45,682 bases of DNA from positions 1 through 45,682 of the forward strand of contig CAMBZJ010000025.1 of the NCBI GenBank assembly GCA_945872365.1, read 5' to 3'. Numbering within the stretch: position 1 is the stretch's first letter; every line of letters begins with the position of its first letter. This DNA comes from Klebsiella pneumoniae (GTDB lineage Bacteria > Desulfobacterota > Binatia > UBA12015). A program made the translations under genes and the position numbers. This document shows, in pieces, positions 27,229 to 38,292 of the stretch. The notes beneath the pieces are model-generated. The model was not told the DNA's origin and ran no database searches. It saw only the letters and a program-made list of their open reading frames with translations.

Positions 27229-28002
27229 TCAGCGGAAGAGGTCGGTCTCGCGGCGCCGGATGAGCGCACGCCCACCGCGCGGGCGCGCGGGATCGGCGTT
27301 CGCGGGCGGCGCCGGTGCCTGCCAGCCGCGGACGATCACCGCGGCCACCCCGTCGGACTTGCCCATGACCAGCCCGGCCGCCCCCGCGAGTTCGTCGGCG
27401 ACGCCGATCACGGTAACCCGCAGTTCGTGGCCGTTCAGGTCGCGGGTGCCACGCAGGTCGAGGAGCGGCTCGATGCCAGCCACGCCGAGCGCCACCTCGA
27501 CCTGACCCTCGCGCCACGGGCGCCCGAAGGTGTCGGTGACCACGACGCCGAGATCCACGCCGAGGTGCGACCGGAGCGCGGCCCGCAGTCGCTCGGCCGA
27601 GGCATCGGCGTCGACCGGCAGGAGCGTCACCTGCCCGTCGCTCACCGCGTTCGACTCGTCGATGCCGGCATTGGCGCAGACCCAGCCCGGACCGGTCTCG
27701 ACGATCAGATGGCCCCCATCCATGCGAACGATGCGGTTGCTCTCCCGCAGCACCAGTTCGACGACGCGCGCGTCCTTGCTGTGGCGCTCGGCATAGGCGC
27801 GTGCGAAGGGCGACGGCTCGACCCCGGCAAGATCGACGACGCGCCCCTCGGCCTTCGAGACGACCTTCTGGCAGACGAGGAGTACGTCGCCGGTCTTCGT
27901 GCCGACGCGGCTCTCGGCGATCGCGCTCGCGAGCAGGCGCGCCAAGTCGTCGCCGGGCCGGATCCGGGGAAGACCCGGGATGGGTAGGACCAGGATCGCC
28001 AT
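27229..28002 (-). CDS. cofE: Coenzyme F420-0:L-glutamate ligase
   Basis: 257 residues, the size of stand-alone archaeal-type CofE; the nitroreductase-like domain of actinobacterial FbiB is absent. Features: GDVLLVCQKVVSKAEGRVVD, AYAERHSKDARVVELVL, GWVCANAGIDESNA and VVVTDTFGRPWREGQVEVA. It adds glutamates by gamma linkage to F420-0 using GTP. It starts 3 nt after the cofD stop and is the last gene of the operon, 49 bp from the convergent FrhB-like gene. Confidence 0.95.
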   Translation of the reverse strand: MAILVLPIPGLPRIRPGDDLARLLASAIAESRVGTKTGDVLLVCQKVVSKAEGRVVDLAGVEPSPFARAYAERHSKDARVVELVLRESNRIVRMDGGHLIVETGPGWVCANAGIDESNAVSDGQVTLLPVDADASAERLRAALRSHLGVDLGVVVTDTFGRPWREGQVEVALGVAGIEPLLDLRGTRDLNGHELRVTVIGVADELAGAAGLVMGKSDGVAAVIVRGWQAPAPPANADPARPRGGRALIRRRETDLFR

Positions 28003-28005
28003 GGC

Positions 28006-28986
28006 TCAGCCGGCGAGGCGTCGGCGGGTGCGCTGGACCGAGGCAGCCAGCCGAAGCGCGGCCTCGCCGACCGCGGCCGCCCGCATCGGCGATCGCATGA
28101 GGATGTCGAGGTGCTCGACCGAGATGCCGCGCGCCTCCAGGCGAGGCGACCAGTGCCGGTCCGAGGAGTCGATGACCAGGCCGTCGAGGAAGTCCGCGTA
28201 GGCGTCGGCGATCGAGAGCGGATTCGGCGCCATGCCGAGCGCGCGCATCATCTTGTCGGCCGGCCCCTTTACCGGGCGCCCGCCGATCAGCGGGCAAACC
28301 GCGACGATCGGGGCGCCGCTGCGGCGGAGGGCCTGGCGTATGCCGGGGACGGCGAGGATCGGGCCGATGCTGACCAGCGGATTGCTCGGCGCGACGATCA
28401 CGGTCTCGGCTTCGTCGATCGCCGCGAGCACGCCCGGGGCCGGGCGGGCGGAGCGGGCCTTCGCGTAGGTGATCGCCCGAACCGTTTCGCGAGCACGGTC
28501 CCGGACCAGATACTCCTGGAAGGACCGGCGTCCGCCCGTCGTGTCGACCAGCGTCCGCACCGGTTGGTCCGTCATCGGCAGGACGCGGGCCCGCACGCCG
28601 AGGGCGCGGGCCTGCAGGGCCGTGATCTCGGACAGGGATTGCCCGGCGCGCCGGCGCTCGGTCCGGAACAGGTGGGTCGCGAGGTCGCGGTCGCCGAGTT
28701 GGAACCAGGTGTCCTCGCGGTAGCGACCGAGGGCCCCGAGTGCCGCGAAGGTGTCGCCTGCAATGCCCCAGCCGCGCAGTGGATCGGAGAGTCCGGACAA
28801 GGTGTAGAGAATTGTGTCGACGTCGGGCGACACGTCAAGGCCGTAGAAGACGTCGTCATCGGCGGTGTTGACGATCACGCAAAGCCGGTCGCGGGCGACC
28901 CGGGGCGCAAGCCCCCGCAGCAGTCGGGCGGCGCCGACGCCACCCGCGAGCACGACGACGCGCCCGCGATGGAGAGGGCGGCTCAC
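28006..28986 (-). CDS. cofD: 2-phospho-L-lactate transferase (or PEP-using equivalent)
   Basis: 326 residues from a GTG overlapping the cofH stop (GTGA). Family motifs: VVVLAGGVGAARLLRGLA at the N-terminus, VIVNTADDDVFYGLDVSPDVD, GRYREDTWFQLGDRDLATHL, VIVAPSNPLVSIGPIL and PLIGGRPVKGPADKMM. It attaches the phospholactyl, phosphoglyceryl or phosphoenolpyruvyl group to Fo, giving an F420-0 form. Which donor is used cannot be read from sequence, and the guanylyltransferase that supplies it (CofC/FbiD) is not in the window. Confidence 0.95.
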   Translation of the reverse strand: MSRPLHRGRVVVLAGGVGAARLLRGLAPRVARDRLCVIVNTADDDVFYGLDVSPDVDTILYTLSGLSDPLRGWGIAGDTFAALGALGRYREDTWFQLGDRDLATHLFRTERRRAGQSLSEITALQARALGVRARVLPMTDQPVRTLVDTTGGRRSFQEYLVRDRARETVRAITYAKARSARPAPGVLAAIDEAETVIVAPSNPLVSIGPILAVPGIRQALRRSGAPIVAVCPLIGGRPVKGPADKMMRALGMAPNPLSIADAYADFLDGLVIDSSDRHWSPRLEARGISVEHLDILMRSPMRAAAVGEAALRLAASVQRTRRRLAG

Positions 28987-30218
28987 GCGCCGGCGGGCCG
29001 TGCTGCGGCGAACCCGCCTTCGCCTGCGGAGCCAGAAACCTGTGGTGCGGCCGCGTGGACCTCGCCGTAGAGCGTCGAGCGCTGGCGGGGGATGCGGCCC
29101 ATCGAGCGGATGAGGTGTTCGATTTCCTCGACCGTCGTGTACTCGCCAGCGTCTGCGCCCGCCTCGCGCGAAATGCTCTCCTCCATGAGGGTTCCGCCGA
29201 AGTCGTCGACGCCGGCCGCGAGGCTGAGCGCCGCGAGTTCGTGGCCGAGTTTCACCCAGGAGGTCTGCAGGTGCGGGATCGATCCACGGAAGAACAGGCG
29301 GGAGGCTGCGTACATGCGGAAGTCCGGCTCGCCGGCTTCGATCGGCTGTACCAGTCCACGCTGGTAGAGGGCCGTCTTCTGGTGGATGAAGCGCAGCGGC
29401 ACGAACTCGGTGAAGCCGCCGGTCTCGTCCTGGATGCGCCGCAGAAGTGCGAGATGGGCCGCGACGTGGGTGTCGCTTTCGACGTGACCGTACATCACGG
29501 TCGAGGTGGTCGGCAGCCCGACGCGATGGGCGGTCGTGATGATCTCGATCCAGGTCGCCGTATCGACCTTCTTGTGGGAGAGGATCTCGCGGATCTCGTC
29601 GTCGAGGATCTCGGCGGCCGTGCCCGGGACGCTGCCGAGCCCGGCGTCGCGCAGCATCGCGAGGTAGTCCGAGTAGGTCATGCTCGTGCGCCGCGCGCCG
29701 TACATGATCTCCATCGGCGAGAACGCGTGGACGTGGATCTGCGGGAACGCTTCCTTGATCGCGACCAGCATGTCCCGGTAGGTGAAGGCGCCCATCTGCG
29801 GGTTGATGCCGCCCTGCATGCAGATCTCGGTCGCACCGCGCTCGACTGCTTCGACGACCTTGGCGAGCACCTCGTCGGTGCCGTGGTTGTAGGCGTCGCT
29901 CTCCCAGCGCTGGCGCTTGAAGGCGCAGAACTGGCAGTTCACGAAGCAGACGTTCGTGAAGTTCACGTTGCGGTTGACGACGTAGGTGACGACGTCGCCG
30001 AGATCCTCGGCGCGAACCCGGTCGGCAGCGGCGACGAGGGCGCGGAGGTCGTCGCCCGTCGCCCGCAGCAGGGCGAGCAGGCCCGCCTCGTCGATGCGTT
30101 CGCCCGAGAGCCCGCGCTCGATCTCGCGCGCGACCGAAGGGCTCGCGGCCGCGACCAGGCGTTCGACGGGGGTGCCGTCAGGCAGCAGGGAGCGGACTGC
30201 GTCGGTCACCGGCGTCAT
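28983..30218 (-). CDS. cofH: Fo synthase subunit 2 (radical SAM)
   Basis: 411 residues from ATG 30218, overlapping the cofG stop (ATGA). The radical-SAM cluster motif is CFVNCQFCAFKR (C-x3-C-x2-C). ICMQGGINPQMGAFTYRDML, HVHAFSPMEIMYGARR and GLGSVPGTAAEILDDEIR are hallmarks of the CofH/MqnE/MqnC branch. The coupling to cofG decides for CofH. Together with CofG it joins tyrosine and the ribityl-diaminouracil from riboflavin synthesis to make Fo. Confidence 0.95.
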   Translation of the reverse strand: MTPVTDAVRSLLPDGTPVERLVAAASPSVAREIERGLSGERIDEAGLLALLRATGDDLRALVAAADRVRAEDLGDVVTYVVNRNVNFTNVCFVNCQFCAFKRQRWESDAYNHGTDEVLAKVVEAVERGATEICMQGGINPQMGAFTYRDMLVAIKEAFPQIHVHAFSPMEIMYGARRTSMTYSDYLAMLRDAGLGSVPGTAAEILDDEIREILSHKKVDTATWIEIITTAHRVGLPTTSTVMYGHVESDTHVAAHLALLRRIQDETGGFTEFVPLRFIHQKTALYQRGLVQPIEAGEPDFRMYAASRLFFRGSIPHLQTSWVKLGHELAALSLAAGVDDFGGTLMEESISREAGADAGEYTTVEEIEHLIRSMGRIPRQRSTLYGEVHAAAPQVSGSAGEGGFAAARPAGA

Positions 30219-31414
30219 GCGCGTACCTCCGATGCGGCCGCCTCGCGGCGCGCGATCTCCAGGCGCCAGGCCTCGATGGGGGCGCGCATTTCCGCGGCGA
30301 CGAAGTCCTTGCGCTCGACGAACTCCGGATAGATCGGCAGGCGTTCGGCGAGTCGGAAGCCCGCGCGTTCGCAGCGCCGCGCGAGTGCTCCGAGGTGCGG
30401 CCAGGGCGCCTCGGGGTTCACGTAGTCGGGCGTGAGCGGCGAGATCCCGCCCAGGTCGTTGATGCCGCTTTCGAGAAGCCCGTCGAGGCCGTCGGCCGAG
30501 AGGTTCGGCGGGGCCTGGACGTTCATGTCGGGGCCGAGCATGAGGCGGGTCACGGCGATCGTCCGCTCGAGGTCGTGGGCGTCGGGCTCGGCCGCGGTCG
30601 CCATCGGGATCTCGGGCTTCGCGCGGAAGTTCTGCACGATCACTTCCTGCACATGGCCGAACCGGGCGTGCAAGTCGGCGATCGCCTCGATCGTGTCGAT
30701 GCGTTCTTCGAGCGTCTCGCCGATGCCGATGAGGAGCCCGGTCGTGAAGGGGATCCGCTGCTCTCCTGCGTCGCGGACGACCGCCAGGCGCAGTTCCGGA
30801 TCCTTGTCGGGTGCGTAGTAGTGGACCTCGCCTCGGGTGCGCAGCCGGGGGCTCGTCGACTCGATCATGAGGCCGAGGCTCGCGTTCAGCGGGCGCAGGA
30901 GAGCGAGGTCCTCTGGCGTCATGAGTCCGGGATTCGAGTGGGGCAGGAGGCCCGCCCCGAGGGCGACCCGGCAGCTCGCGGCAACGTAGTCGATGGTCGA
31001 TCGCCAGCCGCCGGCGGCGAGCCAGCGCCGGTAGCCGGCGTAGGCCGCCTCGGGCTTGTCGCCGAGGCACATGAGCGCCTCGCAGCAGCCGAGTCCGCGC
31101 GCCCGCTCCGACCAGCGTGCGATCTCGTCGAGAGACATCGTCCAGGCGCCGTCCTGCTCCTCGTCGCGCCGGAACGTGCAGTAGGAGCAGCGATCGCGAC
31201 ACAGGTTCGTCACCGGGAAGAACGCCTTGCGGGAGTAAGTGATCGTGCGCCCCTTGCCGGCGTCGCGCAGGGCCGAGGCTCGGGCGAGCAGTTCGGCGAG
31301 CTCGTCGCCCTCGGCGCGCAGGGCGCGCACGGCTTCGCCGCGGTCGAGCGGGGACCAAGCGACACCTCTTGCAAGGGCGGCGGAGTCGCTGGCGGCCAAC
31401 TCGGCGATGCTCAT
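30215..31414 (-). CDS. cofG: Fo synthase subunit 1 (radical SAM)
   Basis: 399 residues from ATG 31414. Cluster motif CRDRCSYCTF. Other CofG features: GKGRTITYSRKAFFPVTNLC, CCEALMCLGDKPEAAYAGYR, GLLPHSNPGLM, TTGLLIGIGETLEERID, QEVIVQNFRAKP and NDLGGISPLTPDYVNPEAPWP. It cyclises the deazaflavin ring with CofH. CofG and CofH are separate, unlike actinobacterial FbiC. First gene of the four-gene operon; a promoter candidate lies at 31498-31526. Confidence 0.96.
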   Translation of the reverse strand: MSIAELAASDSAALARGVAWSPLDRGEAVRALRAEGDELAELLARASALRDAGKGRTITYSRKAFFPVTNLCRDRCSYCTFRRDEEQDGAWTMSLDEIARWSERARGLGCCEALMCLGDKPEAAYAGYRRWLAAGGWRSTIDYVAASCRVALGAGLLPHSNPGLMTPEDLALLRPLNASLGLMIESTSPRLRTRGEVHYYAPDKDPELRLAVVRDAGEQRIPFTTGLLIGIGETLEERIDTIEAIADLHARFGHVQEVIVQNFRAKPEIPMATAAEPDAHDLERTIAVTRLMLGPDMNVQAPPNLSADGLDGLLESGINDLGGISPLTPDYVNPEAPWPHLGALARRCERAGFRLAERLPIYPEFVERKDFVAAEMRAPIEAWRLEIARREAAASEVRA

Positions 31415-31497: not shown

Positions 31498-31526
31498 GAA
31501 TTAGAGGAGCCCCGGGGGGGAGTCAA
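31498..31526 (-). promoter_or_regulatory. Candidate promoter of the cof operon
   Basis: On the minus strand -35 TTGACT (31526-31521) is followed by TCTAAT (31505-31500, spacer 15) or TAATTC (31503-31498, spacer 17). The -35 box overlaps the stop codon of the upstream gene. The predicted start leaves a leader of roughly 75-80 nt before cofG. Confidence 0.45.
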
Positions 31527-32137
31527 CCGCTGGTCGCGGCGGCGGGCGGTCCGGGCAGGGAAGGATCGAATGGCCGGTGCGCGGCTCCCCGCGCCATCGG
31601 GCGGCGACTCCCCGGTGCTTCGAGCAGGGGTGGCTCGAGCAGCGGCAGCCAGAGTTGCATTGCACTCGTCGCCGTCGGGGTCGGTGCCTCCAGGCTCGGC
31701 CGGCGGCGCAGGTACCCCTGGAGGTAGGACGTCCATTCGCCGAGCGAGCGCTCCTGGTCGTCGGCCCGCGCCAGCGCCTCGACCGCCAGACGGAGGAAGG
31801 CCTCGCGATCGAGATCGGCGCGGTGGGCTCCGGCGCCCGGGAGCAGCTCGATGCGCCAGACAAGGGGTCCGTCGGCCTCGGGGCGGGCCCCGACGGCGAT
31901 CGCGAATTCGCCCTCGCAGGCGACCTCCACCCGGCGCAGCGCGAACGGCTCGAGCCATGGCAGGTCGCTCGCGGCTCGCCCGGTCGGCGTCCAGCGGCGG
32001 ACCTCGCAGGCGGCGTGGTGGAAATCAAAGGCCGCGGCCTCCGCCGCGAGTTCGGCCGCGAAGTCGCTCGAGCGCGGCAGTTCCCGTTCGAGCATCCGCA
32101 TCGTCGCGGTGCAGCGTCTGCAGTGGAGAAACGTCAT
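31523..32137 (-). CDS. Hypothetical protein with N-terminal CxxC
   Basis: 204 residues, ATG 32137, 6 nt after the kinase-like gene upstream. It opens MTFLHCRRCTATMRM, a single C-x-x-C pair that could bind metal, followed by a mixed region (FDFHHAACEVRRWTP, RRVEVACEGEFAIAVG, WRIELLPGAG) and a helical part (REAFLRLAVEALARADDQ, WTSYLQGYLRR). The last 50 residues are Pro/Ala-rich. I do not recognise a family. Co-transcription with the response-regulator/kinase hybrid suggests a link to that signalling protein. Confidence 0.65.
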   Translation of the reverse strand: MTFLHCRRCTATMRMLERELPRSSDFAAELAAEAAAFDFHHAACEVRRWTPTGRAASDLPWLEPFALRRVEVACEGEFAIAVGARPEADGPLVWRIELLPGAGAHRADLDREAFLRLAVEALARADDQERSLGEWTSYLQGYLRRRPSLEAPTPTATSAMQLWLPLLEPPLLEAPGSRRPMARGAAHRPFDPSLPGPPAAATSG

Positions 32138-32143
32138 CGAGCG

Positions 32144-33247
32144 TCAGGCGCCGCGTCCGGCGGCGAGCCGTTGCGTGGCGCCGGGCGCGGGTGTCCCCTC
32201 GGCGAGCGATCGCCGGCTGCAGCGAATCCGAACCCGGACCGCGTCGTCCATCGCGTCCGCCCGCGCGGTTCGTTCGATCCGCACGTCGAGCGCCCGCGCG
32301 GCTCGCTCGAGCACGTCGCCACCACCCCAGGATCCCGTCTCGGTGCTCGCAGAGGCGTCCGTGCGGCCCGCCCCGGTTGCCCGCGCGAGGAGGTCGATCG
32401 CAAGTTCGTCGCGCCGGAGCAGGCTCACCCGGACCCGCAGAGCCGTTCCCGGCGCTCGTGCGAGCGCCTCGTAGGCGAGGACGCCCATCAGTCGGGCGAG
32501 TCCGCGCGGATCGGCGTGGACGGCGAGCCCGGGCGGACAGTCCACGTCGATCCGACCGCCAGCGAGCATCGCCTCGTTGCGGATCGGCGCGAGCAGCAGT
32601 TCGAGCCAGGGTAGCACCGTGAACTCGCTCGAAGTCCCGGCGATCCGCCCGCTCTCGCTCTCGGCGAGGAAGAGCAGTCCCTCCAGGTACGACAGCAGGC
32701 GCTCGGAACAACGCCGGATCCTGTCGAGCGCCTCGCGGTGCGCTTCGTCGAGGCGCTCGCCGGCTTCCTCGCGCAGGATCTCGCTGTAGCCGACGATGGC
32801 GTGGAGCGGCGTGCGGAACTCGTGCGACAGGTTGCCGAGCAGGTTGCCGCGCATCTCGATCGCGCGTTGCCGCAGTCTCCGGGCGACGAGCGCCGCGCGC
32901 ACCGCGGCCAGGACCGCAGGCCCGTGGAACGGCTTCACGATGTAGTCGCGGGCCCCGAGTCGCAGGCAGTCGATGGCGCTCTCGAGCGAGCCCTGTCCGG
33001 TCACGACCAGCGCCTCGACGTCGATCGAGGCTTCGCGGATCGCCCGCAGCGACTCGGTTCCCGAGAGGTCCTGCGGCATGGTGAGATCGAGCAGGACGAC
33101 GTCGTAGCCGACCTCGCGCAGCAGGCCTAGTGCCTCCGAGCCGCGCGCCGTCGTGTCGACCCGGTACTCGTCCTTGAGCAGCATCCGGAGCGACTCGCGC
33201 GGTCCCGGCTCGTCGTCGACGACGAGGATGCGGCTCGGCTCACCCAT
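32144..33247 (-). CDS. Receiver-HisKA hybrid signalling protein with degenerate ATPase domain
   Basis: 367 residues from ATG 33247, where the receiver domain begins naturally; no strong Shine-Dalgarno. Receiver domain 5-120: acidic pair D11-D12, phosphoacceptor D54 in VVLLDLTMP, K105 in VKPF. HisKA 135-200: LSHEFRTPLHAIVGYSEIL with H142. The remaining region keeps the position of a HATPase domain (ADPRGLARLMGVLAYEALAR) but has no N-box asparagine and no G1 (DxGxG) or G2 glycine motifs. It probably cannot bind ATP as a usual histidine kinase and may act as a phosphotransfer or scaffold protein. Co-transcribed with the CxxC protein. Confidence 0.8.
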   Translation of the reverse strand: MGEPSRILVVDDEPGPRESLRMLLKDEYRVDTTARGSEALGLLREVGYDVVLLDLTMPQDLSGTESLRAIREASIDVEALVVTGQGSLESAIDCLRLGARDYIVKPFHGPAVLAAVRAALVARRLRQRAIEMRGNLLGNLSHEFRTPLHAIVGYSEILREEAGERLDEAHREALDRIRRCSERLLSYLEGLLFLAESESGRIAGTSSEFTVLPWLELLLAPIRNEAMLAGGRIDVDCPPGLAVHADPRGLARLMGVLAYEALARAPGTALRVRVSLLRRDELAIDLLARATGAGRTDASASTETGSWGGGDVLERAARALDVRIERTARADAMDDAVRVRIRCSRRSLAEGTPAPGATQRLAAGRGA

Positions 33248-33491
33248 GGCGGTGGGCGCAGCAGCACCCGGCGTGCCATCCCCGACGACGGAGCGGCCCG
33301 CGCGCCCGGCCCCACGGCCCGCACCGCAAGAGTGCGTCCGGCGGGTTCGCGCGCGCCGGACCGCCCGCACAACCGCCCACCGTCGCGCCTGCGGAGCCGT
33401 CGCGGGAACGCACGACGTTCACGATTGAACGTTCGGATTCGTGCACGGTCGCGGACGCCATGGCGTTCGCGCGGCCCGGCGGCGACGCGGA

Positions 33492-34928
33492 TCAGAGCGG
33501 GCGATCGGGAATGCCGAGCTTGTCCATGCGGTACTTGAGGATGCGGCGGGTGGTGCCGAGTCGCTCGGCCGTGCGGGTCTGGTTGAAGTCGCAACGCACG
33601 AGTGCCTCGCGGATGATCCCGCGCTCGAAGTCGTCGACTGCGTCGGAGAGCGAACGCTCGCCGCGCAGGACCTCCTCGCTGCGCGCGGCCGCAGCGGGAG
33701 TCTCGGTCCTGCGCAGGGCCTCGGGAAGTTCCTCGACCCGGACCGGTCCGCCCTCGCCGAGGATGAAGAGCCGCTCGACCAGGTTTTCGAGTTCGCGCAC
33801 GTTGCCGGGCCAGCGGTAGCGCTCGAAGAGCGCGACCGCCTCGGGCGAGAACGGCCGCTCGGCGACCGAGAGTTCGGCGGCCTTGGCCCGGGCGAATTGG
33901 CGCAGGAGGAGCGGGATGTCCTCGCGCCGTTCGCGCAGCGGGGGCAGGGCGAGGGAGACGACGTTCAGGCGATAGTAGAGATCGCCCCGGAAGCTGCCGT
34001 CGGCAACCGCCTGCTCGAGGTTGCGATTGGTGGCGGCGACGATCCGCACGTCGATCGAGACCGGCTTCGCTCCCCCGACGCGCGTGATCTCGCCGGTTTC
34101 GAGGACGCGCAGCATCTTCGCCTGAAGGGCGGGGTGCATCTCGCCGATCTCGTCGAGGAAGATCGTCGACTCGTGGCTCAGCTCGAACTGGCCGATCTTG
34201 CGGGTGTCGGCGCCGGTGAAGGAACCGCGCTCGTGGCCGAAGAGTTCGCTCTCGAGCAGGTTCTCGGGGATCGCCGCACAGTTGATCGCCGTCATCGCGC
34301 GGCGCGAACGCGGGCTCTGGTGGTGCAGCGCGCGCGCGATCAGTTCCTTGCCCGTCCCGCTTTCGCCGGTCACGAGAACGGTCGTCCTCTGCGGCGCGAC
34401 CATTGCGATCGTACGGAAGATCGGCTGCATCGCGGCACTGCGGCCGACGATATTACCGAGCTGGTAGCGACGGCCCACCTCGGCTCGAAGCTCCTCGACC
34501 TCGCGCTGCAGGGCCGCGGTGCGCCCCGCGTTCAGGACCACGGCGCGTAACTCGTCGAGGTCGAACGGCTTCTGGACGTAATCGAAGGCGCCGAGCTTCA
34601 TCGCCGTGACCGCCGTCTTGAGCGTACGGGTCGCGGTGAGCATGATGACCGGCAGGTCGGGTCGGCTCCCCTTCATGCGTTCGAGGACGGCGAGGCCGTC
34701 GATGCCCGGCATCAGGATGTCGAGCAGGACGACGTCGGGCCGCTCGGTCGCGAGAAGCGCGAGCGCCTGCTCGCCCGACTCCGCCGGGATGACCTCGAAG
34801 CCGTCGCGTAGCACGAGCCGCAGCGACTCGCGGACGCCGAGTTCGTCATCGACGACGAGCACGCGCGTCCGCCGTGGCGTCGCCGGGGAGGCCGGGCCGG
34901 GAGCCTCAGGAGTCGCGCCGGAGTCCAT
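33492..34928 (-). CDS. NtrC-family sigma-54-dependent response regulator
   Basis: 478 residues from ATG 34928, overlapping the upstream pseudokinase gene by 23 nt. Receiver domain 20-135 with D70 (VVLLDILMPGIDG) and K in VQKPF; AAA+ domain with Walker A GESGTGKE, NCAAIPENLLESELFGHERG, the sigma-54-contacting loop GSFTGA (usual GAFTGA with one change), Walker B TIFLDEIGEM and FRGDLYYRLNVV; then [15 protein letters not shown] and a C-terminal Fis-type HTH (NQTRTAERLGTTRRILKYRM). It is expected to activate sigma-54 promoters after phosphorylation, with the overlapping gene as partner. Confidence 0.95.
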   Translation of the reverse strand: MDSGATPEAPGPASPATPRRTRVLVVDDELGVRESLRLVLRDGFEVIPAESGEQALALLATERPDVVLLDILMPGIDGLAVLERMKGSRPDLPVIMLTATRTLKTAVTAMKLGAFDYVQKPFDLDELRAVVLNAGRTAALQREVEELRAEVGRRYQLGNIVGRSAAMQPIFRTIAMVAPQRTTVLVTGESGTGKELIARALHHQSPRSRRAMTAINCAAIPENLLESELFGHERGSFTGADTRKIGQFELSHESTIFLDEIGEMHPALQAKMLRVLETGEITRVGGAKPVSIDVRIVAATNRNLEQAVADGSFRGDLYYRLNVVSLALPPLRERREDIPLLLRQFARAKAAELSVAERPFSPEAVALFERYRWPGNVRELENLVERLFILGEGGPVRVEELPEALRRTETPAAAARSEEVLRGERSLSDAVDDFERGIIREALVRCDFNQTRTAERLGTTRRILKYRMDKLGIPDRPL

Positions 34929-36369
34929 GGGCAGCGCCCTCTTGCGGCAGCGGTGCGTCGGCGACCGTCCTTCGTGTGGCCTCCGCACCCGGAAAGCGCA
35001 GCGCGATGCACCGCTGCGCGCCCTCGTGGTCGGATTCGAGCGTGACGTTGTCGGCGGCGAGCGCGCCGCGGGCGAGCAGGAGGGCGAGCGGGAGTTCGTC
35101 GTCGAGGCCGCTCACCCCGCGCAGGTGGGTTGTGGCACCGGCTTCGCGATGGCGCAGGAGGAGGGTGTCGCCCACGGCCTCGACCTCGAGGGTCCCGCCC
35201 GGCTCGATCGTCTCGAGTACGTGGCGGGAGATCGCCGTGAGTGCGGCGCGCAGCCGGGCCTCGTCGGCGAAGGCGATGAACCCGGCGTCCTCGGGAAGCT
35301 CGACCCCGCAGTCCTTCGCGGATCGCCCGGCGGTCGCCTCCCGCAACGACTCGCGGAGCAGGGCCGACACGTCGATTCTGCGCGGTCGCGGCGGTGCGAG
35401 CCGCGAGAAGGCGAGGATCTCCTCGAGCGCTCCGTCCATGCGCCCGATCGCCTCCTCGGTGAGGTCGCGAAAACGGGCGAGGTCCGCCGGGTCGCTCGCG
35501 AGTTGCGCGACGCTCTGCACGAAGGTCCGCACGGTCACCAGCGGGTTCTTGATCTGGTGGGCGAGTTCGACGGCAATGGCCTCGCTGCCGACCGCGCCGG
35601 TCGCAGCGGGTTCGGACACGCGGCTGCGGGCGGGAGGAAGCGGCGCCGCGTGCACCCCGGACGGCGCCGCGGCGATCCCGGCGGCCGCGGTCGGCTCGAG
35701 CGGATCCCAGCGTAGGTCGTCGGCGCGGATGGTGACGCCGTCGAGGGCGAGCAGCGAGCGCGCGAGGACGGCATCGAGTTCGGCGGCGTCGCCCGGCCAC
35801 GGGTGTGCGGCCAGGGCGCGCTCGGCGTCGGGCGAAATGGCGGGCACCTCGCAGCCGAGTTCGGCGGCGAGCACGACGAGTCGCTCGCGAGCGATGGCCG
35901 CGACGTCCTCGCCGGCCCGCGCGAGGGCCGGGGCGCGGACGGAGATCGTCGAGACGAGGGCGAAGAAGTCCGGGCGAAGCGTGGCTCGCAGCGTCGCGAG
36001 ATCGGCCGCGCTCGCGCTCACCAGTCGCGGTCCATCGCCGTCCATGAGCCGGAGGAGGGCGGCTTGCGCATCGTCCCCGAGCTTCTCGATCCCGTCGATC
36101 GCAAGCGTGCAGCGCGGCGAAGTCGCCGCCCGTATCAGGGCGGCGAGCAGGTCGTCGCGCGTCGCGTGCAGGTCGAGCGTGATCAGCCGGTCGCGCCGGC
36201 TCGCCGCGTGGATCGACGCGGCAATCCTCGAAAAGGCCGCGCCGAAGCAATCGAGGCACAGCACCGGCAGCCCGGAGCCCGCCACCCGGGCGAGCGTGCG
36301 CGCCGAGGCGGGCGGGATGAGACGCAGGGCCGGCGGGATCTCGCGGTGTGGGTCCACCATGCTCGCCAC
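34906..36369 (-). CDS. Fusion of a decayed sigma-54-activator-like AAA+ module with a HisKA domain; probable histidine pseudokinase
   Basis: 487 residues from GTG 36369 (ATG 36360 is possible). Residues about 30-222 align by eye with the AAA+ domain of NtrC-type activators: Walker-B-like CTLAIDGIEKLGDDAQAALL (87-106), then LRPDFFALVSTISVRAPAL and HPWPGDAAELDAVL in place of [12 protein letters not shown]. The Walker A lysine and the GAFTGA loop are missing. Residues 262-335 are a HisKA domain with H271 in ELAHQIKNPLVTV. Residues 345-460 occupy the place of the ATP-binding domain but lack the N-box asparagine and the DxGxG and GxG motifs. Role unknown: partner, sensor or inhibitor of the overlapping NtrC-type regulator. 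Confidence 0.78.
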   Translation of the reverse strand: MASMVDPHREIPPALRLIPPASARTLARVAGSGLPVLCLDCFGAAFSRIAASIHAASRRDRLITLDLHATRDDLLAALIRAATSPRCTLAIDGIEKLGDDAQAALLRLMDGDGPRLVSASAADLATLRATLRPDFFALVSTISVRAPALARAGEDVAAIARERLVVLAAELGCEVPAISPDAERALAAHPWPGDAAELDAVLARSLLALDGVTIRADDLRWDPLEPTAAAGIAAAPSGVHAAPLPPARSRVSEPAATGAVGSEAIAVELAHQIKNPLVTVRTFVQSVAQLASDPADLARFRDLTEEAIGRMDGALEEILAFSRLAPPRPRRIDVSALLRESLREATAGRSAKDCGVELPEDAGFIAFADEARLRAALTAISRHVLETIEPGGTLEVEAVGDTLLLRHREAGATTHLRGVSGLDDELPLALLLARGALAADNVTLESDHEGAQRCIALRFPGAEATRRTVADAPLPQEGAAHGLRRDS

Positions 36370-36371
36370 GC

Positions 36372-36725
36372 TCAGGCCCGCTGCCCGGACTCGGTCGTCG
36401 TCGCCGAGCGCGCGTCGTCGCGCCGGGCGCGCATCAGCCCGAGCGCGCTCAGCACGATACCGGTCGCCGTGAACAGGCGACCGCCGGTCGCGACGACGTG
36501 GTAGAACTCCTGGTGAGCCCGCACGAGTTCCACGTCCGCATTGGCGGCGGCCTCATGGCCGCGCACGCTCGGCTCGGAAGGACGACTCGCGGCGCTCGTA
36601 GCGATGTCGCGCAGACGCATCGTGCCGGTGATCCAGTTCCCCGCCCCGAGCGCGAGGAGTCCGAGTCCGCCCACCAGCAGGTGGTTGCGGTACCAGGGGC
36701 GGCGGTTCGATCGCGGCTCGGGCAC
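36372..36725 (-). CDS. Small membrane protein, two predicted helices
   Basis: 117 residues from GTG 36725. A basic N-terminus is followed by a helix ([19 protein letters not shown]), a middle segment of about 45 residues rich in Ala/Ser/Glu, a second helix ([15 protein letters not shown]) and a charged C-terminus, giving both termini probably in the cytoplasm. It stops 2 nt before the pseudokinase GTG, so it leads the operon that contains the pseudokinase and NtrC-type regulator. No known family; it might provide the membrane input for that system. Confidence 0.62.
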
Positions 36726-37170
36726 GCTAGCATCATCGGCGAATCGCGGGGCGCGTTGCAACCGGAGGTTTCGCCGCCGGGCGCCACGACCGAAGCGCCG
36801 TGGCGCGGACGTTGCGCCTGAAGGCCCGTGGGGCCGTGTCGGGAGGAGCCTCCGTCGCCCGCGATGCGCTGGCCCCGTGCTTGCGAGGACGGATTCGTCG
36901 AGGGGGGCGCGGGGCGGTGCATGGTGCGCCGTCCCGTGGCCCGGGGGGGAGCGGGCGGGCTGGTCGGCGCTAGCCGAACCGGTCCGCCCGTTCTCGCATC
37001 CGCTGACCTCGTTTCGGGCCTCTTCGGTCCTTGCCGCCGCCGCATCGCCGAAGGGGCGCTTTTGCATCGCGGGGCATCGTCGGACGCGGTGGATCGCTGG
37101 TAGGCGTTCCGCGGTCGGCATCGAGCGACGCGGCGGAGGGTCCGCCGCGCGGAACGACGGGGGGTGGCCT
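36726..37170. other. 445-bp intergenic control region between divergent regulatory genes
   Basis: No gene is supported; short open frames here have unusual composition. It contains the sigma-54-type promoter candidate at 36801-36815 reading right. No matching element was found for the leftward operon. Confidence 0.5.
36801..36815 (+). promoter_or_regulatory. Candidate sigma-54 (-24/-12) promoter
   Basis: TGGCGC-GGACG-TTGC, one mismatch to TGGCAC-N5-TTGC, with the GG and GC doublets at the required spacing. The predicted start near 36827 gives a leader of about 345 nt to the activator gene at 37171, which could thus be autoregulated. The base after TTGC is G rather than A/T. Confidence 0.45.
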
Positions 37171-38292
37171 GTGACAGAGCACACGGCGGCGGAACGCGGG
37201 GGCGGGTCGGGGGTGGCGGTCGCGGATGCGCCCGCGGGAGGTGTCCGGGTGGCGACGGGCGGCGGGACAGCGGGCCCACTTGGAGCGACCCCGGGCCGTC
37301 GCGCGCGCGGGGGTGACGCGCTCGTCGGCGCGAGCGAATCGATCCAACGGCTGCGAGCGGACATCCGCTGCTTCGCGCGCAGCGACGCGTGCGTGCTGGT
37401 CGAGGGCGAGACCGGCACGGGCAAGGAACTCGTCGCACGGGCTCTCCACGAGGAGAGCGCGCGTGCCGCGGGCCCCTTCGTCCCGGTGAACTGCGGTGCC
37501 CTTCCCGAGCAGCTCGTCGAGAGCGAACTCTTCGGCCACCTCCGCGGAGCCTTCACCGGCGCCCACCGCGATCACCCCGGGCTCGTCGAGGCGGCTGCGC
37601 GCGGCACGCTCTTCCTCGACGAGATCGAAGACCTGCCGCCGCCGCTGCAGGGAAAACTGCTGCGCCTGCTCCAGGAGGGCGAGTACCGACCACTCGGCGC
37701 CGTCCGCGCCAGGTCGGCGGACGTGCGGGTCGTCGCCGCTTCCAACGCGCAACTCGCCGGACTGGTCGCCGAGCGACGCTTCCGCTCCGACCTGTTCTAC
37801 CGGCTCGACGTTCTCCACCTCGAGGTCCCGCCGCTTCGCGCGCGGCCCGAGGACGTCGACCCCCTGGTCGCCCATTTCCTCGCTCGGACCGGTCGCCCGC
37901 GGGCGGTGGCAACCGGGGACCTCGAACCACCGCCGGAGTGTCTCGCCTGGATGCGCGGGCAGTCCTGGCCGGGCAACGTGCGCGAACTCGCGAACCTCGT
38001 CGAGCGCGCGGTCGTGCTCGTGGCCGAGCACGGGGCCGCCCGCGGCTGGGCGGTGGCGATCTCGGGCGCCGGCCGCGTCGCGGACGCCACGGCGGCGCCC
38101 CCGCCGCGACCGCCGGCGCGCTTCGAGCAGGCCGAGTCGCCGGAAGCGTCGGCGCTGCGCCGCCTCCTCGATCGGCATCGCTGGCGTCGCGATGCCGCAG
38201 CCCGCGAGATGGGAGTCTCGCGCGTCACGCTGTGGCGCCGGATGCGCCGGCTCGGCCTCGTGGGTGCCCCGGCGGATTCCGGGGCCGGCTGA
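37171..38292 (+). CDS. Sigma-54-dependent transcriptional activator without receiver domain
   Basis: 373 residues from GTG 37171 with GGGG about 7 nt upstream. After a 50-residue Gly/Ala-rich, apparently disordered N-terminus the AAA+ domain is complete: [15 protein letters not shown] (Walker A), [17 protein letters not shown], exact [41 protein letters not shown], and [17 protein letters not shown]-terminal Fis-type HTH ([19 protein letters not shown]) binds enhancer DNA. Lacking a receiver or any sensor domain, it should be controlled by another protein (as PspF is by PspA) or be constitutive. A pseudo-AAA+ protein encoded divergently is a possible partner. Confidence 0.92.

Follow-up and report, generated by a model that had tools for sequence, protein, structure and literature searches.

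We find that the protein encoded at positions 32,144 to 33,247 of the window (the whole 45,682-nucleotide stretch of DNA analysed here), which we call RECHK, is a receiver-HisKA protein whose ATP-binding (CA) domain is degenerate yet present, with a kinase CA fold kept in the predicted structure. The best overall explanation, which we favour with somewhat better than even confidence, is that RECHK is an ATP-independent, receiver-gated DHp protein that would close a feedback loop, by dephosphorylation or by relay, on the NtrC-type regulator encoded beside it (NTRC). We propose more tentatively, and a little short of even confidence, that this ATP-free receiver-DHp device arose in the window's own family by in-place conversion of a receiver-controlled kinase, and that it would be a sigma54-driven product of the very regulator that it controls. 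The names RECHK, NTRC, AAAHK and HK1 were coined in the present analysis, and the kinship groups used below (the window's own family, f1, of 14 genomes; another group, f2; and the class) were assigned by genome search. RECHK and its domains are as follows.

32144..33247, minus strand: RECHK, receiver-HisKA protein with a degenerate ATP-binding domain, 367 amino acids (open reading frame and Pfam)
32900..33229, minus strand: RECHK receiver domain, residues 7-116, with D54, T83 and K105 present (Pfam Response_reg, E 1.4e-23)
32648..32854, minus strand: RECHK HisKA/DHp domain, residues 132-200, with H142-E-F-R-T146-P (Pfam HisKA, E 2.2e-18)
32210..32638, minus strand: RECHK degenerate ATP-binding (CA) domain, about residues 204-346, with a shortened lid (alignment and predicted fold)

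The open reading frame is real; it begins with an ATG at 33247 on the minus strand, and none of the 31 strong RECHK matches, the window's own copy included, carries an internal stop. The orthologue search covered 58 genomes, all of which gave some match, mostly to receiver domains, and the orthologue set was taken as the 31 matches at E 2.3e-39 or better (the next match stands at 1.4e-24), ten of which are in f1. A separate scan of the genome contigs, which may have missed close relatives of the window, kept 80 of 443 relatives, and these are receivers or kinases that are 22-43% identical. The sequence-only reading had described RECHK as a receiver-HisKA protein with intact D54 and H142 and no recognisable ATP-binding boxes, and had named an HATPase_c HMM search as the check. 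That description holds. Both residues lie at those positions within the domains found by Pfam, and in the alignment they are invariant in 10/10 f1 members and in 31/31 orthologues; K105, E143 and T146 are likewise identical in 10/10 f1 members, and residue 83 is T in seven and S in three. Searched against Pfam up to E 10, RECHK shows no HATPase_c and nothing beyond Response_reg and HisKA, and no family cut-off was exceeded among the best 25 of 127 NCBIfam matches. Its N and G boxes are altered: compared with intact orthologues, E260 stands in place of the N-box Asn, A288 of the G1 Asp, A290 of the first G1 Gly and W307 of the middle G2 Gly.

HATPase_c is detected in 0/10 RECHK proteins of f1, whereas it is present in 21/21 belonging to the class's other families. 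Outside f1, 20 of the 21 orthologues have N at the N-box position; within f1 none does (E in five, A in four, R in one); among box remnants in the aligned f1 proteins, the G1 Asp is kept in 4/10 and the first G1 Gly in 5/10. A CA profile made from the intact orthologues and the HK1 kinases (see below) matched three f1 RECHK proteins weakly (G012, G007 and G011; E 1e-6 to 1e-3) and, among f1-locus frames of at least 150 amino acids, nothing else up to E 10. A hidden ATP site in RECHK was rejected on the Pfam search to E 10, the class alignment and the box counts. One alignment was reduced from 18 rows (A1) to 15 (A2) by removal of one misaligned row (L084) and two divergent ones (L081 and L094). 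When a tree is computed from only the receiver and DHp domains, the ten f1 RECHK proteins form one group with support 100/99, and long branches lead to G015, G009 and G044. A single loss of the ATP boxes in the f1 ancestor is the simplest reading of these sequences and, since HATPase_c is kept in every orthologue outside f1, the ancestor was probably an active receiver-controlled kinase of the LvrB/NmpS type. One RECHK copy (L171 in G043, 1208-2317) lacks the G1-box stretch in-frame and is otherwise intact, through either a real deletion or an assembly fault.

AlphaFold models of RECHK built on distant homologues (pLDDT 79.2 for the whole protein and 78.0 for the CA part) show a kinase CA fold, and model confidence is low at the expected lid position. 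Because a VIA search with the whole model gave receivers among the best 50 matches listed, the CA domain (residues 203-367) was modelled alone; it aligns with GacS (Z 15.8, rmsd 2.4, 141 residues), DivL (Z 15.0, rmsd 2.5, 130 aligned) and the LvrB CA domain (Z 13.9, rmsd 2.7, 132 residues). The order receiver-DHp-CA is present in RECHK (receiver and HisKA by Pfam, CA by predicted fold), and the protein shows two features of degenerate-kinase phosphotransferases, a conserved phospho-acceptor His (H142, 31/31) and a CA remnant without ATP boxes. We estimated dN/dS in 12 chosen RECHK pairs, six within f1 and six outside it. In the f1 pairs it is below 1 for every RECHK domain and 0.10-0.62 for CA, so the CA domain is still constrained; the intact CA domains outside f1 also evolve fast (0.00-0.63, the zero reflecting saturated dS), so the rates give no sign of a changed role. 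A Glu of the E143 type serves autophosphorylation in HisKA kinases, and since E143 is retained, some kinase activity may persist in RECHK through an uncommon mechanism.

Three further regulatory genes lie upstream of RECHK.

33492..34988, minus strand: NTRC, NtrC-type sigma54 activator with receiver D70 (numbered from Met 34928), a GSFTGA loop and a Fis-type HTH (Pfam)
34906..36369, minus strand: AAAHK, degenerate sigma54-AAA-like domain, HisKA (H271) and degenerate ATP-binding domain (Pfam and alignment)
36541..38292, plus strand: divergent sigma54 activator without a receiver, start codon uncertain (homologue in 11/11 f1 loci with AAAHK)

H271 and D70, the two partner residues singled out by the sequence-only reading, are both found at those positions. 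It had also argued that two such proteins side by side point to a phosphotransfer network supplied by another kinase, and this claim survives in part. RECHK and AAAHK are both HisKA proteins without HATPase_c in the window, where the Pfam matches of AAAHK are the sigma54-AAA-like domain, the AAA lid and HisKA, but the two are not equivalent, because RECHK invariably has HATPase_c outside f1, whereas in the 33 AAAHK class members it is matched weakly in 3 (best E 3.3e-5) and absent from 30, with HisKA in 33/33. (These 33 rows were collected with most frame starts untrimmed, and G052, truncated at a contig end, was excluded.) E197, H271, N275 and P276 of AAAHK are invariant in the class alignment. 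As to the phosphate donor, an HATPase_c search of the whole home genome gave 11 matches and none on the window's contig (C25); the matches at C11, C36 and C9:57042 look, on reading, like gyrase, topoisomerase and MutL proteins. Since the contig has no HATPase_c and D54 and H142 are invariant, we infer that the phosphoryl group must come from elsewhere, as the sequence-only reading had it; what we do not retain is the picture of RECHK as simply an upstream relay.

An intact kinase, HK1, adjoins AAAHK in 12 genomes of other families, with HATPase_c in 12/12. We rejected it as a replacement kinase in f1, where a search for its orthologue gave no clear one and the ten best matches (36-41% identity) resemble generic kinases. 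An intact receiver-HisKA-HATPase_c protein is encoded on another contig of the home genome (G000:C6; L212 7583-8722) and is a candidate phosphate donor, as a lead only; its DHp motif, HNLNNP, resembles that of HK1, and among the 14 loci collected in the HK1 search the motif recurs in seven, from seven other f1 genomes. Two other features of the neighbourhood are recorded here. The sigma54-contact loop of NTRC reads G[AS]FTGA in 10 of 11 f1 members and GAFTSA in G004, and outside f1 it reads G[AS]FTDA or GAFTNA in the 20 class members that were readable, the pattern search having missed some rows. Upstream of AAAHK (window 36372-36794) lies the gene of a small protein that probably has a membrane segment; it matched no Pfam family and has weak relatives in some other loci.

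Two stretches of regulatory DNA precede RECHK; the sequence-only reading had mentioned neither.

33263..33278, minus strand: sigma54 (-24/-12) promoter TGGCACGCCGGGTGCT, with about 16 nt between its end and the RECHK start codon (motif scan)
33416..33431, no strand assigned: perfect dyad CGTTCA-N4-TGAACG, likely enhancer (activator-binding) site (motif search)

When up to 2 mismatches were allowed, the window scan found 16 sigma54 sites against 8.9 expected, one of them directly before the RECHK start. The strict pattern TGGCAY-N6-TGCW lies within 100 nt upstream of RECHK in 28/31 orthologues and in 10/10 of those in f1; the exceptions are near-matches in G044 and G020 and a strict site that faces away in G015. 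The 39 sequences scanned (the window and 38 loci) contain 31 strict sites in a total of 1,293,414 strand-bases, and 28 of these are the sites upstream of RECHK. Shuffled upstream stretches contained a strict site in 1 of 6,200 cases, a figure to be read with the facts that the shuffles preserve base content only and that both the sigma54 and the dyad motif were discovered and counted in the same data. The home genome has rpoN; the strict pattern occurs in it 13 times and the reversed pattern 44 times. A promoter scan over predicted genes (7 of 527) used crude start codons and is not relied on. Loci with AAAHK and NTRC and no RECHK (G006, G016, G022 and G042, the last with its NTRC frame split in two) have a strict site in 0/4, and in G057 and G045, where one contig carries RECHK with the cof genes and another carries NTRC, the promoter is still there. 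With near-matches included, the sigma54-like site begins 29-34 nt before the start codon in 24/31 orthologues, a spacing that predicts an mRNA leader of about 5 nt and thus near-leaderless sigma54 transcripts; in G014, G019, G031, G038, G051 and G057 it begins at -43 to -69.

The dyad lies 137 nt further upstream than the promoter in the window. A k-mer search that excluded G015 found the word CGTTCA in 21 of 30 RECHK upstream regions, against 2.3 in shuffles. The best dyad score is 11 or 12 of 12 in 11 of the 31 upstream regions and at least 9 in 22 of them, 66-169 nt upstream of the promoter; it is below 9 in the remaining nine, the f1 genomes G007 and G011 included. Scores of at least 9 are weak evidence by themselves, with a background of 201 places in 646,707 bases, or about 4 expected per 31 regions. 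Matches of 11-12 bases occur at 13 places across the loci, 11 of them upstream of RECHK and two in cof genes. The home genome has two perfect copies, the window's and one at C7:95578, and at up to 2 mismatches it has 44 places against 48 for the reversed control, which is no excess. The second perfect copy (G000:C7:95578-95593; L222 5579-5594) lies between a PhaR-like gene and a receiver-less sigma54 activator and is about 130 nt from a weaker sigma54-like site. In f1 and several other families the C-terminal segment of NTRC has the sequence NQTRAAE-x-LGTTRRILKYRMDKLGI or one much like it. In f2 the recognition segment is instead TSRR...EKL (G014, G041 and G054) and the dyad is missing upstream of RECHK; its absence where the recognition segment differs, noticed post hoc, fits NTRC as the reader of the dyad.

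Downstream of RECHK, the minus-strand order AAAHK, NTRC, RECHK, CxxC protein continues into genes of the F420 pathway.

31523..32137, minus strand: CxxC protein, 204 amino acids (starts 6 nt after the RECHK stop)
30215..31414, minus strand: CofG-like radical SAM protein, F420 pathway (gene order)
28983..30224, minus strand: CofH-like radical SAM protein (CofH_C domain)
28006..28986, minus strand: CofD, 2-phospho-L-lactate transferase (domain search)
27229..28002, minus strand: CofE, F420-0:gamma-glutamyl ligase (domain search)

The first of the radical SAM proteins we take to be CofG from general knowledge of the pathway and its place in the gene order; 108 nt separate it from the CxxC gene. 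The CxxC protein, of which two copies were run, matched no Pfam family, and it may be the real output of the unit; a frame with CxxC close to its start lies directly 3' of RECHK in 21/31 loci, the window included (9/10 in f1). NTRC is within 900 nt upstream of RECHK in 25/31 loci and beyond that distance or elsewhere in six (G003, G004, G015, G031, G045 and G057), AAAHK is within 3.5 kb in 24/31, and cof genes are found no more than 9 kb downstream in 21/31 (10/10 in f1), where some loci end at contig ends. RECHK is probably a target of the adjacent NTRC, in one unit with the F420 genes, as judged from this arrangement of motifs and genes, and the conserved sigma54 promoter with its upstream dyad makes it a likely feedback element on NTRC as well.

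The mechanism that we propose would run as follows. In the f1 ancestor a receiver-DHp-CA kinase lost its ATP boxes, but the CA fold and the two phospho-sites stayed. NTRC, bound at the dyad, would drive RECHK from its sigma54 promoter, and the predicted transcription unit would continue into the CxxC gene and, in f1, the F420 genes. The RECHK receiver would accept phosphate from a kinase encoded elsewhere and so gate the DHp domain, which in turn would act back on NTRC without ATP, either stripping phosphate from it (a brake) or passing phosphate on (a relay). AAAHK, a mostly ATP-less protein with an NtrB-like DHp domain, would probably act on the same receivers. Between the two outcomes we slightly prefer the feedback brake, in part because the role of feedback sink or phosphatase is the simpler one for a product of NTRC that seems unable to make phosphate, and in part because H142-E-x-x-T146 of RECHK matches H-E-x-x-T, the phosphatase motif of HisKA kinases.

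Other roles for RECHK can be imagined. One is a single-chain phosphorelay, a fused Spo0F-Spo0B in effect, in which another kinase would phosphorylate D54 and the phosphate would then travel via H142 to D70 of NTRC, making RECHK a positive step. The invariance of D54 and H142 throughout f1 suits this idea, as does PhyT, a protein with a degenerate ATPase domain that, in passages of PMC5898713, carries phosphate from the SdrG receiver to PhyR. The receivers of RECHK and NTRC have a G[PVI]RESL helix in common in 8 of the 9 f1 loci in which both were read, but this is weak support because a regulator on contig C10 of the home genome has the same helix. We regard the phosphorelay as rather unlikely, and an NTRC-driven sigma54 promoter would make RECHK a late product, which is odd for a sole activator. 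A role as structural pseudokinase, in which RECHK would dimerise with or gate another kinase or AAAHK and perform no phosphotransfer of its own, seems improbable to us: the CA fold is kept without ATP boxes, and portions of PMC9491836 describe both a ChrS with a frameshifted CA domain that alters signalling and ChrS-HrrS heterodimers, but H142, E143, T146 and D54 are invariant in 10/10 f1 members and a pure scaffold would need none of them.

That RECHK is simply a decaying gene on its way to loss in f1 strikes us as very improbable. The ATP site is gone from the f1 proteins, and one genome (G006, 98% complete) has AAAHK and NTRC with a RECHK match no better than receiver level. Against decay, all ten f1 matches are free of internal stops, dN/dS stays below 1 in every domain of all six f1 pairs, and the sigma54 promoter is kept in 10/10. 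The reading that we prefer is still the ATP-independent, receiver-gated protein that would close a feedback loop on NTRC.

The receiver-DHp-CA order and the idea of a degenerate kinase are both already known. The best Foldseek match of the whole RECHK model is LvrB of Leptospira (PDB 8vc9; E 7.3e-15), which has the same domain order; the TM of 0.31 indicates that domain placement differs in the whole model. The input of LvrB is phosphorylation of its receiver, according to parts of PMC13269768; the CA domain of LvrB is active and its partner is an anti-sigma factor, whereas RECHK has no ATP boxes and an NtrC-type activator alongside. The nearest tested wiring, likened here by description, appears to be that of NmpS-NmpR in Myxococcus xanthus, where a receiver-kinase and an NtrC-like regulator are likewise encoded in one locus. 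In the sections of PMC6211767 drawn on here, NmpR binds DNA upstream of the putative operon that encodes it, and NmpS phosphorylates NmpR, is phosphorylated by NmpU and does not transfer phosphate to its own receiver. NmpS differs from RECHK in that it autophosphorylates and is linked to type IV pili, in place of the F420 setting. PhyT, Spo0B and ChpT resemble RECHK in combining a phospho-His DHp domain with a degenerate ATPase domain, and passages of PMC5898713 describe Spo0B and ChpT as degenerated kinases; unlike them, RECHK carries its own N-terminal receiver, and its phosphotransfer is putative. DivL of Caulobacter (4q20) is among the best profile matches of the RECHK DHp and CA domains (E 8.4e-20). 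In DivL a Tyr replaces the phospho-acceptor His, but RECHK keeps H142 and so is not of the DivL type in this respect. Parts of PMC9430884 term DivL a pseudo-histidine kinase. Among the titles, opening lines of abstracts and parts of papers covered, we did not find an ATP-less receiver-controlled kinase combined with a sigma54 promoter of its own in an F420 setting; no title among the matches listed ties F420 biosynthesis to such a signalling system, and the terms "promoter" and "response regulator" do not occur in the part of the F420 review PMC8498797 that was covered by a term search.

The conversion of a kinase to an ATP-free protein can be seen here in its before and after states (21 intact and 10 degenerate proteins) at the same gene position, with the promoter and partners mostly kept across it. 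Since both states are preserved, RECHK offers a usable test case for the origin of degenerate kinases such as Spo0B and PhyT. The RECHK-NTRC locus is also a candidate regulatory input to the biosynthesis of F420, a redox cofactor. If our proposal is true, the family would have a two-component feedback loop around F420 biosynthesis, run from a locus that has two kinase-like proteins and no ATP-using kinase.
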